Origin: Aphelenchoides besseyi | Taxonomy: Eukaryota; Nematoda; Chromadorea; Rhabditida; Aphelenchoididae | Reading direction: 5' to 3' | Assembly (NCBI GenBank): GCA_024699855.1 | Contig: JAMPIQ010000002.1 | Span: 3,410,001 to 3,474,000, forward strand | Length of the DNA: 64,000 nucleotides | Shown: positions 3,371-64,000 of the stretch, one piece after another | Position numbering within the stretch: the stretch's first letter is position 1 | Layout of the letters: each line of letters begins with the position of its first letter | Made by a program: the position numbers and the translations under genes | Notes under the pieces: model-generated | The model's database searches: none | The model's input: only the letters and a program-made list of their open reading frames with translations | Told to the model about the DNA's origin: nothing

Positions 3371-5179
3371 ATGCAAAGCAGAATTGTTGGTTTGATCTTC
3401 GGGTTTCTACTTCTGATAATTGTGCTGTGGACGTTCATCGAAGACGAACAACCGGTGCATATCGCTTATAGATCAAGTATGTCGGCAAGTAGGTACCGAG
3501 CTTATTTACACTTAAGTAAATGCTTTCAGATACGTGGCTTAAACGGGATTTGTTGAGGTTTCAATCAAAACAAAACGATGAGTTCAAAGACCGTCGATTC
3601 GTTCGACCCGCTGAGACCGAACACGTTCCCTGTGATAAAGTCTTTAATCCGAACGTCGATCGTTTCTCTCTAGCGCGTAAGTATCGAGTTAAATACGACG
3701 ATCCAAGAGAGGAAGCTCATCTGCCGATGGATTGTAAATCGATTAAGAAGCGAAACAATTTCTACGAACAGCCACTTTCTGAAGCGGAACGAGACTTTCC
3801 ATTAGCTTATGCTCGTAACATCTTTTCCGATTATCGCTTCATTGAAATGGAGTTGTCAACGACCTACGCGCCTCAAAATCACTATTGTTTCTCGATTGAT
3901 GGAAACAGTTCGCCAATCTTCAGAAAACGCATGATGAATCTAAGTCGTTGTTTTCCGAATATCTACATCACGAATCTTACGCTACGAATGGACAGCGCCG
4001 GTCACAACACCAACGCACATCATCAGGAATGTTTGAAGATTTTGGGTGTTCCGTCAAAAGAATGGCGCTACGTGATGCTTTTGCAGGTAAACCAACCCAC
4101 GACTTTAACTTTAAAGCTGCTTTAGAATTATGACGTCATGTTGAAGACAAATCAAGAGCTAGTACAGATTCTGACTTGGTGTGTTACGATCCTTTTGTGA
4201 AATTGGACTTCTTGTAAAAAGGTCGGACTTTTTACAAGAAGTCCAATTTCACAAAAAGGCCCTAACATGTTATATAGGTACAACGGAACGAATGATGTGA
4301 CCACAGAAGTGCGCACAGAAGTCAGTCGCTTTAAACGAACGTTTAATTCCCTTAAATTGTTCAAAGATCGTACGTTCGGGTTCCAATGTTAACATTATTG
4401 AAGATGTTTTAGCCAAAAGAAATTTTCTTACAGTCAACGGGATACCACCAACTTTGGGCGTGACGAGGAGTTTCGTGCAAAACACCATGTCTCGTGAAGC
4501 AATCGATTTCATCCTGGAAAAATTGAATCTGAACCTCTTGATTGAGTTGTTCAATGCGGAGGATTGGACCGGAGATGAGTACTTGACTTCGACCTTGAAC
4601 AGCGACGATAACATCCAGCTACCCGGCGGCTTCACCAGAAGATGCAAACAGTCTGGAATTATCATCGGAAAAACAAGGTAACAATTCAGAATTTCGGAAA
4701 CAATTATATTGCAGATACAATGTTTGGATACGCAACAAAACGATATGCGATTCACAACTGTGGCGACATAACGCGTGTATTTTTGGGTTGGAAGATTTGC
4801 GGCCAAAATTTGTGGACAATCCGTTTTTCATTGCAAACAAACTTATGCCCAGTTACGACTTTGCGGCGATAACTTGTCTGCATGAAGTAGTGTTCAACCG
4901 AACTTATCACGACCGAGGGTTTTATCGACTGAACAAAGACGAATACGTCAAACTACCTCAAGTGAGTAGTCGATTGATAATGTGAATGAACTGAAGAGTT
5001 TTAGGTTCGTTTTAACAAACAACGAAACCGTTTGGGTGCAAGTTTTGATCCGGGAAAGTTTGATTGCACTAAACATCAAAACGAGTACATCGGAACGAAT
5101 ATTCTTAGATCCGGGTTGCGTGTAAGTATCTTGTTATGTGTAAACAATCGACTTGAGATTTCAGATTATCGAAACTTAA
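3371..5179 (+). CDS. GT14 core-2/I-branching beta-1,6-N-acetylglucosaminyltransferase-like (483 aa)
   Basis: Eight exons (3371-3476, 3530-4086, 4126-4178, 4278-4369, 4413-4677, 4715-4961, 5005-5121, 5165-5179) sum to 483 aa plus stop. It is a type II Golgi enzyme: a short N-terminus, a signal anchor (LIFGFLLLIIVLWTF), then a stem and catalytic domain. Family hallmarks seen: SEAERDFPLAYARNI, YAPQNHYCFSIDG, CFPNIYI, DSAGHNTNAHHQECLK, WRYVMLLQNYDVMLKTNQELV, NDVTTEV, MSREAIDFI, DEYLTSTL, HNACIFGLEDL and FFIANKLMPSYDF. GT14 enzymes transfer GlcNAc (or xylose) to glycans; worms have many copies whose substrates are mostly unknown. The fourth exon is preceded by a hairpin-containing intron, listed separately. 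The last exon is only 15 nt (IIET plus stop). Confidence 0.85.
4193..4256. repeat. Perfect 29-bp inverted repeat filling an intron of the GT14 gene
   Basis: Bases 4193-4221 and 4228-4256 are exact reverse complements (left arm begins ttttgtgaaattgg, right arm ends ccaatttcacaaaa), separated by a 6-base loop gtcgga. The hairpin lies wholly inside intron 3 (4179-4277) and makes up about two thirds of it. In the pre-mRNA it would fold into a long stem and bring the two splice sites together. It looks like a foldback/MITE insertion. Confidence 0.9.
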
Positions 5180-60057: not shown

Positions 60058-60333
60058 TATACTATCAGGCCGTCAACAACGATCGTAAGTTGATTCCGAT
60101 TTAATTATTTTGTGTTTCAGCGTCTTTGGCCATTCAGCCGGTCGATCAGACTCTTGCTCAAATTGCCGAATTTGGTGAGTCGTGTAAACGAATGAAAATA
60201 TAGAGTTTGTGCTTTCACACATAACGAGTAAATTGTTTGTTGTAGTTTCACGGCGAGTAATCACAAAGATTTGTATATTCGATTGTTGTGCGAAGAACGT
60301 ATGCTCGATGATGAGGGACGATTGAGACCCTAG
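60058..60333 (+). CDS. Possible 3' exons of a small Cys-containing gene
   Basis: Exon 60121-60174 (SDSCSNCRIC within it) joins in phase, via TTTG|gtgagt and ttgttgtag, to 60246-60333 (SNHKDLYIRLLCEERMLDDE, stop after GRLRP). A tiny upstream exon may lie at about 60069-60084, with GATC|gtaagt. The CxxCxxC cluster could bind zinc, but no family is recognised and no start codon is placed. A minus-strand frame also crosses here with poorer splice sites. Confidence 0.3.
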
Positions 60334-60915
60334 AAAAATCTAATCTCAAAGTTCGATTCTCAGTCTCGTCCGCAACCACGACTTTGCAACAAGCTCTCGT
60401 ATTGCCTACATTTCGATTTGTTTCGAGCGATTTTGCCAAAGGTTGTCAGTTTCTTATATAAAGCAACTTATCGAATTCATTAAAACTTAATTGCCACGAT
60501 CTTTGCGAGCTAAAGTGCAAACCCATGAAACCTTATTGTTTCTTTTCTCGTAGAGACAACCACTGAGTGCAGGTGTTCTTTCAAGTTCGGGATTCAGAAC
60601 ATAGAATTCTGTACCCGGAAGTAATTTTTCGCCGAACTCTTCTTTTCAACACGTCTACGGAACCCAATTGTCGTGTTTAATTACCGAATCAGCTGTTTTT
60701 TCTGTTCGTTTGTTACACACGATTTACGCATCAATTTTTGCGTTCAAGCAATTAGACGTGAACGAGTGGGCCATGCGTAGAAGGGAAATTGGTTTAAAAG
60801 ATTGCGCACGTTCCCTTTTTCAGTTTAGCTAAACAGTTCGAAGTGAATGAAAAGTTAATTCGCTTTAATAGTTCGAATTTTACCTTCAAACGACTTTCAC
60901 TCGATTCGTTTTCAG
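60334..60915. other. Spacer and promoter of the tyrosinase gene
   Basis: About 0.6 kb. One possible orphan exon-like frame (60363-60438) is seen without context. The region ends with cgttttcag directly abutting the tyrosinase ATG, which fits a spliced-leader acceptor. Confidence 0.45.
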
Positions 60916-63900
60916 ATGGCCGAAAGCTCACAAGCTTCTTGGAAGATAAGATGGATTGTGTTTCTGCTTTATGTTCAATTAGTCAGCGGCCAAATGGACT
61001 GCTCGAAGGCTCCTAGCGAATCTTTAAGAGTAGTCTGTCAGCAAATAAACAATTGGGACAAGAATGCTCGTGCAGCTTCGACACCCGAAAAAGACGGTAT
61101 TGTCCTACCGCCCGGCACCAACGAAACGGAGATGACGTTTTCTGTTATGACGATTCCAGAAGTGGCTGCAACCGCTGAGGAGTGTATGACGTTGGGTATT
61201 TTTTTCAAGCCCAACTACAATAGTCGTCCACTTGTTTAGGTTGTCTATGTCCATATTTGGGAGGTTGAGATCTCGAATCGACTGCTCGAATAAACGATTT
61301 GTGTGTTTAGGACAAGGAAACGATGAGGAGTAACTATACTTTAGCTGCCCCTCGCCAAATGACTCATATTGCATATCAATCGACTTCACTTGTCGAGTAC
61401 ATCAATAATTACTGAACACTATAGTGCGGAAATCACTGTGCATCAAGATACGATACGACAAACTATCAGTCGAACGCGCGTTCTTTTCTGTTCAAAAAAG
61501 CGCGCATTTGTGAGCAGAGGATCAACACCACCAAATTTATCAATGCGTCACCAAATAATCAAAACGCTACTAATGAGCGCGTTGCGACTGATAGTTTGTC
61601 GTATCGTATCTTGATGCACAGTGATTTCCGCACTATAGTGTTCAGTAATTATTGATGTACTCGACAAGTGGAGTCAATTGATATGCAATATGAGTCATTT
61701 GGCGAGGAGCAGCTAAAGTATAGTTCACCCAGCGATGACACAAACCATTGCACGTTGAGCAACGGTCAACCGCTCCAGAAATCGCTTCGTCGTGAATATC
61801 GAACCTTAAGCGATGAGGAACGAAATCGTTTCCACACCGCTTTCTTGGGAATCAAGAAGAACGGAGCTTTCAATGAAATCGCCCGACTTCACGCGCAATT
61901 TGCAGAGAACGGTGCGGCTCATGCGGTTCGTTCAAATCTTACTTTGTTTTGTCTAAAAGGCTTATTTTTTCTAGGGACCAGCTTTTCTTCCATGGCATCG
62001 TGAATTCATTAAACGAATGGAAATCGCGTTACGAAAAGTTGATCCGGGTGTTAGTTTGCCCTACTGGGACTCCGTAATGGACTCCTATTTACCCAAACCG
62101 TCCGATTCCATTATTTGGACTGTAAAATAGTCGAAATGAGAATCTCGAGTAAAATCATGACTTCAGGACGCTTTCATGGGAAACAATCAAGGATCAGTGA
62201 CTTCGGGTCCATTTACCAATTGGCAGACAATTGAACAACACCCGACAATTACACGAAAAGTCGGTGCTGAGGGATCGGTTTTCAACGAAACGAATATCAT
62301 TGATTTCATCAGTTTCACGGACATTAACAAAGTTTTAGCACCAACTGCTCCACAAGCTGTAAGCCCAAAAAGAGTATTTAAGACGAGTTTTCAGGGTTGT
62401 CCATCGATTCCAACTTTTTCTGCTATTGAATACACGCATGGAAACGTTCATTTGTATGTTGGAGGTGATATGCATGGAACCGGTTAGTGTGATCATCTTA
62501 ATTTTCATTTGTTTCTATCAGTTATTACGTCAGTTATTTACAGGAACAAGTGCCAACGATCCAATTTTCTATTTGCATCATTCGTTTGTCGATTTGATCT
62601 GGGAAGCATGGCGTTTGGCTCATCAGGTTCGAATCATCATTGAAAGTCAAATTTTTTGGTTTAGGATCGTGATAATCGTGAACAAGAATATCCGTTGGAT
62701 AACAATCTTTGTAGTTCGAATTTCCATTTCTCGTCCGCTTACATGGAACCATTCAAACCGTGGCGTAATAGCGATGGCTTGAGCAACATGTACACTGATA
62801 ACATGTACGAATTCGCTCCACGACCATCGTGTCCGACTTGTGGTAACTCGAAATATCTGTTTTGTATGCGATCACGGCAAAAATGTGCATCAAAAGTGCG
62901 ACCCGGTGGTGTTTGCCGTGGCTTGGATCCCGGTAACAAAAAGAATCTAATCGATCTAACCAGTTAATTTAGCTGAACAACCATGTTACAATGGTGCTTG
63001 TCAAAATGGTGTTTGTGTTTCGATCGGACCTGTAAGCTTGGAACATGAGTAACAGTTCTATAAGAAAAGTTTAGAACGAACCAACAACTGGAAGACCTCC
63101 GATTCCAACAAAACAGCCGATTGGCCCAAAAGGCCAAGACGAAAACTGTTTTAATTCACATCAATGCTGCTCAGTAACTTTAACTCACAAGAAAAAGTGA
63201 TTAAACAAGAGTTTTAGGTTTGGTCAGCAAGCGGCGAATGTAATCGAAATCCGGATTATATGCGTGGATGGTGCGAAGCCTCGTGTGGCATCTGTAAACC
63301 CAACCATTATCAGCTTTCTGTTGGCAAGTTATTCCGTTTCAAACATTTTATCTTCTTTCTTTAGAATGCAGTGACAGACACGTCAAATGCAGTCAATGGA
63401 GCAAAGCCGGTGAATGCGCCAAGCACTTCCAATGGATGGCTGAAAATTGTCGTAAATCCTGTGGAATGTGCGGCAAAACTCGAGCTCAAAACTGTCCGGG
63501 CGGAAAAGCATCGAATCAACGACCACCGACTCCGATGTTTCCAATAATCAGTCCAGCATGTAAAAGCTTTCAATCGGTTATCTCTAACGAGTTTTCATGC
63601 AGCTGGAGCCACAGCCTCGTGTACATCTCTCGGTTGTTTCAATGAAAACATGTGCTGTCAATACTGGGCCCGAAGAGGTGAATGCAACAGGAATCCGGTT
63701 TGGATGGCATGCAATTGCCGGGTTTCGTGTGGTGGAATGTGTTTTCCAAATTACATCTACGGTTTCGGAGACCATCACGAAAAATGTCCGCAATGGGCCG
63801 CTTCGGGCGAGGTTTGTGTTCTTGATTTGTTTGTGTTTTATAGCGCTTATTTAGTGCGACAAGAATACCTGGATGTTAGGTAATTTGATTGTGAAGGCAT

Positions 63901-64000
63901 TTCAGAAGATTTCTATTCAACTTCACAGTTCAGAAGTCTATTAATTCGATGGATTTCAGAGAACTGCAAGTGGAGTTGCCAATCCTTGTACACAAATAAC
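60916..64000 (+). CDS. Secreted tyrosinase with C-terminal ShK repeats (3' end outside window)
   Basis: Copper oxidase of the tyrosinase/phenoloxidase family, probably for cuticle or eggshell tanning. Exons: 60916-61195, 61240-61263, 61311-61329, 61724-61925, 61975-62121, 62167-62358, 62395-62482, 62544-62626, 62665-62932, 62973-63031, 63075-63173, 63218-63323, 63365-63559, 63603-63811, 63855-63879, 63960-edge; 679 codons in frame. Signal peptide at residues 1-25 ([13 protein letters not shown]). [13 protein letters not shown] precedes the core. Cu[25 protein letters not shown]; Cu[11 protein letters not shown] and [24 protein letters not shown] between. A Cys-rich linker ([14 protein letters not shown]) and at least four ShK domains follow (for example [21 protein letters not shown] cut short at its end). 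Intron 3 is an inverted-repeat element; the intron after 63323 has a GC donor. Confidence 0.93.
61332..61725. mobile_element. 394-bp foldback element (141-bp terminal inverted repeats) coinciding with a tyrosinase intron
   Basis: Bases 61332-61472 and 61585-61725 are inverted repeats of 141 bp differing at 3 sites (arms start aactatactttagctgc). The 112-bp spacer has no coding frame of note. The intron defined by flanking exons runs 61330-61723, so element and intron share borders to within 2 bp: the donor is gt + aactatac, the acceptor is agtatag inside the other terminus. No clear target-site duplication is visible. It fits a MITE/foldback element acting as an introner. Confidence 0.9.
63324..63364 (+). 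other. GC-AG intron in the tyrosinase gene
   Basis: The frame requires GTTG|gcaagt as donor and ttctttag as acceptor (41 bp); no GT donor nearby restores the frame into the next ShK domain. Confidence 0.75.

Follow-up and report, generated by a model that had tools for sequence, protein, structure and literature searches.

The window, a stretch of 64,000 nucleotides of the Aphelenchoides besseyi genome (contig JAMPIQ010000002.1, positions 3,410,001 to 3,474,000 of the forward strand), ends within a tyrosinase gene whose coding sequence is interrupted by a transposon with long inverted repeats. Our gene model, in which most of this element is treated as a 394-nt intron, comprises 14 exons and 711 residues and runs from the ATG at 60916 to a single stop at 64150; Pfam recognised a Tyrosinase domain (6.5e-36) and three ShK stretches in the product. 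All introns of the model have GT-AG borders apart from the one that follows exon 11, where the donor is probably GC (63324); exon 14 is preceded by a doubled AGAG acceptor (63962). The features are listed below in window coordinates, with the basis of each call in brackets.

60319..64000, continuing to window coordinate 64272, + strand: duplicated segment including the whole tyrosinase gene (partner G000:C2:17151285-17154824, without the element)
60916..61195, + strand: tyrosinase exon 1, ATG at 60916 (gene model of this analysis)
61311..61329, + strand: tyrosinase exon 2, 19 nt if spliced, made of 16 nt of the old exon and GGA of the element (gene model)
61319..61326, + strand: left target-site duplication AACGATGA (comparison of copies; empty site of the paralogue, AACGATGG)
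61327..61730, + strand: non-autonomous transposon, 404 bp, with ends GGAGTAACTATAC and GTATAGTTCACCC (comparison of copies)
61330..61723, + strand: proposed new intron, 394 nt, GT-AG (top-scoring of three in-frame GT-AG pairs)
61332..61472, + strand: left arm of the inverted repeat (arm comparison in the window)
61585..61725, + strand: right arm of the inverted repeat (arm comparison in the window)
61724..61925, + strand: tyrosinase exon 3 if spliced, TTCACCC of the element followed by the duplicated 8 bp (gene model)
61731..61738, + strand: right target-site duplication AGCGATGA, 7/8 identical to the left one (comparison of copies)
61975..64000, + strand: tyrosinase exons 4-14, the last ending outside the window at window coordinate 64150 (gene model; Pfam)

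The inverted repeat consists of two 141-nt arms, 98% complementary with 3 mismatches and separated by a 112-nt spacer, at the positions and with the arm length that an earlier note on this DNA had given. Two pairs of arms of at least 40 nt lying within 3 kb of each other were found across the window, of which this was the longer; the other, at 4182-4267, has 40-nt arms, 90% complementary, around a 6-nt loop. When the RNA of 61311-61760 was folded in silico, it reached -290.8 kcal/mol compared to -103.9 ± 5.2 kcal/mol for shuffled sequences, and none of 100 shuffles was equally stable.

The earlier note had suggested searching the genome of the species (47.4 Mb, 31 contigs) with the element, and it proved to be a multi-copy mobile element. 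Two such searches gave 34 and 20 matches, which were merged by place into 11 insertions; this is a lower bound, and the family therefore counts at least 11 copies. The family has the ends GGAGGAACTATACTTTAG and GGGCGAACTATACTTTAG, which vary slightly between copies, and the target duplications lie outside them. Comparison of the copies also modified the claim that the element is the intron: while the ends of the element nearly coincide with an in-frame GT-AG pair, the element (61327-61730) is larger than the intron (61330-61723) and encloses it. Nine copies were tested for target duplications in a fixed 8-bp register (probability for one random pair, 0.0005), and in six of them the flanks matched at 7/8 (the window copy, L011 and L026) or 8/8 (L003, L005 and L029). 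The remaining three scored lower (L014 6/8, L002 3/8, L023 2/8); a freer search found at L002 an exact duplication of 9 bp, with the register unchanged, and, after a shift of one base, a 7/8 duplication at L014. No target duplication was found at L015, L020 and L023, which are cut or rearranged copies. Strict test and freer search taken together, recognisable duplications of 8-9 bp flank 8 of the 11 copies. The copy L029 (G000:C3:9750095-9751297) is 1203 bp long; nested in it, close to the right end, is another inverted-repeat element, with arms of about 202 bp that are 94.6% alike.

We infer that the window element is a Merlin-like non-autonomous element, because its GG ends and the 8-9-bp target duplications fit this superfamily. 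Merlin / IS1016 elements are described as having 5'-GG ends, target duplications of 8 or 9 bp and inverted repeats of 24-462 bp (PMC8101967). The window element likewise has 5'-GG ends (GGAG and GGGT), its family shows duplications of 8 or 9 bp, and its 141-nt inverted repeat falls within the given range; GG stands at both ends in 8 of 9 copies compared, L026 having GA at one end. Unlike Merlin, it lacks a transposase, and beyond GG its repeat differs from those of two Merlin copies examined in the genome. MULE and hAT elements, for which duplications of 8-9 bp also speak, were considered, and the genome contained 3 and 2 matches to their domains, respectively, against 26 Merlin transposase (DDE_Tnp_IS1595) matches, 25 of them over the cut-off; for MULE and hAT this is a comparison of counts. 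Several of the Merlin matches have open frames of at least 200 codons. In the three of these 26 loci that were examined, no ends of the element's type (GGAGGAACTATAC) were present: two (L077 and L078) are 98.8% identical to each other over 1438 bp, with GGG ends, otherwise different repeats and 8-bp duplications judged by eye from the flanks, and the third has no clear ends. Genome searches with a 17-base end and with GGRNGAACTATA found no transposase between matching ends that could represent an autonomous partner. The 17-base search, allowing up to 2 mismatches, gave 26 hits (32 for a reversed-pattern control), and two-mismatch hits without a partner were disregarded; the GGRNGAACTATA search gave 19 hits against 16 for its control.

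A protein search within the same genome identified a close tyrosinase paralogue at C2:17151882-17153725, on the same contig and 13.7 Mb away. The duplicated block of ~3.5 kb aligns in two parts with 91.5% and 95.2% identity, and the alignments break at the element; overall, the duplicates differ by 178 substitutions in 3523 aligned bases and are ~95% identical. In the paralogue the exon is uninterrupted (GGACAAGGAAACGATGGCACAAACC) and contains a single copy of the target and no scar, a true empty site. Since the paralogous exon is uninterrupted, the element would have entered the exon after the duplication. The eighth base of the target points the same way: it is A in both window copies of the target and G in the paralogue, which favours an insertion after both the gene duplication and a G-to-A change in the window copy. 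At the residue concerned, the four that were aligned of five more distant tyrosinases have glycine (two), lysine and alanine. Distant tyrosinases were also used in an attempt to polarise the 35 amino-acid differences between the duplicates, but for most of these differences they proved too diverged. At alignment residue 302 the paralogue (L074) has E and the window copy G; this residue lies near an HH that we take to be part of the second copper-site region of tyrosinase. As far as sequence comparison can tell, it is near certain that the transposon inserted into a coding exon rather than into an old intron, and the origin by insertion proposed in the earlier note was thus upheld. As in introners, the window copy is an exon insertion whose empty site is free of an intron.

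The same note had read the exon flanks as joining in frame, and indeed a GT-AG intron at 61330-61723 unites GAGGA/TTCACC with the frame kept open. Splicing at 61329/61724 would keep 18 nt, namely GGA, TTCACCC and the 8-nt duplication, as six in-frame codons that would precede the tyrosinase domain. If the element were retained, an in-frame TAA would follow directly after its left end. Among GT-AG pairs with donors in 61312-61500 and acceptors in 61500-61800, three leave the frame open, all of them using the donor at 61329; the pairs score 4.1 (with acceptor 61724), 3.5 (61733) and 0.8 (61760). The proposed acceptor GCAGCTAAAGTATAG is weak and has no T tract. It scores 1.7 and the predicted donor 2.4, compared to 7.9-15.2 and 2.9-10.5 in the eight other introns of exons 1-10, on which the splice-site matrix had itself been trained, which flatters them (introns 11-13 were outside this set). 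The proposed intron is also long and GC-rich (394 nt, 41% GC) relative to these eight (36-115 nt, 28-39% GC), and both of its splice sites are located at the base of the hairpin (about -290 kcal/mol).

Donor and acceptor differ in their relation to the family. The acceptor TATAG is part of the family terminal repeat, while the donor GT is confined to the window copy among the 11: its donor region reads GGAGTAAC, all eight other GGAG-type ends read GGAGGAAC (GGAGG), and the ends of L015 (GGAAG) and L020 (GGACG) likewise lack GT. A GT is also present, on the antisense strand, at the opposite end of the window copy, where it was produced by another change (GGGTGAAC); changes of this sort thus occur without being needed, and an in-frame GT-AG pair can arise by chance. 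The idea of an introner with ready-made splice sites is not supported at the family level, as GT near the ends was found in 1 of 11 copies and, of the two sites, the family shares just the acceptor TATAG. In the eight other copies of the fixed-register comparison, the first 12 nt of either end contain no GT, and L015 and L020 have none at their ends either. Where the earlier note had expected many intron copies with the same border offset, 1 of 11 could act in this way by its own ends, and an introner family is not supported by the sequences.

Two copies appear to lie in introns, with the context judged by eye: L003 in an apparently ordinary one of 44 bp in a PIH1-domain gene (2.1e-12), and L011 probably in one of about 43 bp. 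The decayed copy L015 (G000:C1:3835354-3835653) immediately follows a possible 3' splice site of a gene; when it is removed, the open frames on its two sides would be in phase with each other (EKD/VDMSIYV), again judged by eye. Although considered as an intron-border case, it was left uncounted, because no definite reading frame could be assigned to it. Beside the ten other copies there are 347 open frames of at least 45 codons; 20 of these were submitted to Pfam, and within these 20 frames PIH1, Med14, ubiquitin and the related Rad60-SLD exceeded the cut-off.

Each of the first ten exons is as long in one tyrosinase duplicate as in the other, three alignment gaps in exon 1 cancelling out, and a single 3-nt indel separates the duplicates over exons 11-14. 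The 2123 aligned bp that lie outside exons 1-10 contain 15 indels, exons 11-14 and their 3-nt indel included. Over 1419 nt, dN/dS was 0.0379/0.1034 (NG86) and 0.042/0.081 (YN00), and beyond codon 93 it was 0.0205/0.0985 and 0.0233/0.0758, respectively, although a pairwise dN/dS cannot say which of the two copies was constrained. Exon 1, with dN near dS (0.114/0.123, NG86), evolves much faster than the remainder.

These data have to be set against the possibility that the element is a plain exonic insertion, poorly spliced, and that the window gene is a young loss-of-function or low-function tyrosinase allele while the paralogue does the work, which we regard as somewhat unlikely. The weak acceptor, the huge hairpin and the TAA that is read upon retention would all agree with a disrupted gene, the insertion may be young (arms 98% identical), and a paralogue as close as this one, 95% identical, could cover for the lost copy. 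Against disruption, the rest of the 14-exon model is without a disabling change, and a GT that is absent from 8 of 8 comparable ends stands here at the needed place and in the needed phase. For a gene dead since the insertion, the arm clock predicts 3.7 disabling changes, and none was seen (P about 0.025, with an assumed stop share of 0.047 and the age taken from 3 mismatches in 141). The test weakens if the insertion is younger, P rising to 0.16 for half the arm-clock age and to 0.40 for a quarter of it, and the clock itself is uncertain, as one arm may have been corrected from the other, or the two may already have been unequal when the element inserted.

Alternative splicing around the element is an improbable explanation. 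The transcript could use the acceptor at 61733 (CCCAG/C), which adds three codons and forms with 61329 the second-best in-frame pair, or exon 1 could join in frame to an acceptor further on, at 61669 in the right arm, 61867 or 61906. The pair 61329/61733 scores no better than 61329/61724, however, and the acceptor at 61669 would bring repeat-coded residues into the protein, while with 61867 or 61906 a large part of exon 3 would be missing. That an old intron was later hit by the element, or was lost from the paralogue, is hardly credible: L003 does seem to sit in an ordinary intron, and L011 probably does so too, but here the target duplication is outside the intron, in coding sequence, with nothing except the element between the splice sites, and the paralogue has one target copy and no scar.

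A new functional intron at 61329/61724 is the best, if unproven, reading of the sequence, and we hold it with moderate confidence. According to this reading, a Merlin-like hairpin transposon of 404 bp would have entered the exon starting at 61311 in one of two recent tyrosinase duplicates, duplicating an 8-bp target. The terminal repeat of the family would have supplied the acceptor TATAG/, and the donor GGA/GTAACT would have been made by a G-to-T change seen only in the window copy. The element would then most likely be removed from the tyrosinase transcript as a spliceosomal intron, and 3 + 7 nt of the element and 8 nt of target would remain in the mature mRNA as six codons before the tyrosinase domain. 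The order of events, duplication followed by insertion, is well supported; insertion, target duplication, empty site and in-frame pair are features of the DNA, while the occurrence of splicing is inferred from them. The fuller interpretation is more tentative, with the case for and against it close to balanced: the locus may represent a natural intron gain in a nematode with its source caught, in which a Merlin-like hairpin, in two steps, added six codons to a functional enzyme, and the base-paired ends may bring the splice sites together.

This kind of event is already known from other systems. In introners (Gozashti et al. 2022, PMC9860276), splice sites flank a DNA transposon that has inserted into an exon, and in an Aureococcus family shown in Fig. 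2F of that paper, 12 nt are kept, 4 from the element and 8 from the target duplication. The tyrosinase candidate resembles the Aureococcus introner in being an exon insertion framed by splice sites, and it would keep 18 nt (10 + 8). Introner families as described there give rise to many introns, whereas in the window family this would apply to 1 of 11 copies, with a donor private to the window copy. The word stem "nematod" does not occur in the main text of PMC9860276. In C. elegans, an exonic Tc1 in dpy-19 is likely removed from the pre-mRNA at a cryptic splice site (PMC12405876). Both are worm DNA transposons in an exon, the one discussed here being putatively spliced out, but according to that account the dpy-19 Tc1 is a laboratory allele whose splicing shifts the frame, while the tyrosinase case is a natural insertion and in frame. 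Transposon-created introns, as this one may be, are also listed in the "Transposon Insertion" row of a review (PMC3443670), which names Oryza, Drosophila, Oikopleura and Zea and no nematode; maize Ds is among the references of that review. A Caenorhabditis survey reported 168 new introns, with a source sequence for none, a polypyrimidine tract in all 168 and unchanged exon sequence in 166 (PMC9169325). Unlike the introns of that survey, the tyrosinase candidate has no polypyrimidine tract, and unlike 166 of them it would alter the exon sequence. In the open-licence literature searched by titles and abstract openings, we found no nematode intron gain traced to a transposon, nor any nematode intron for which source, empty site and duplication are all visible. 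A traced intron source would be of note in nematodes, with precedents existing elsewhere. The source family, the empty site, the target duplication and the candidate donor-making change are all visible in one genome, so the two-step route of insertion and splice-site mutation is directly testable.
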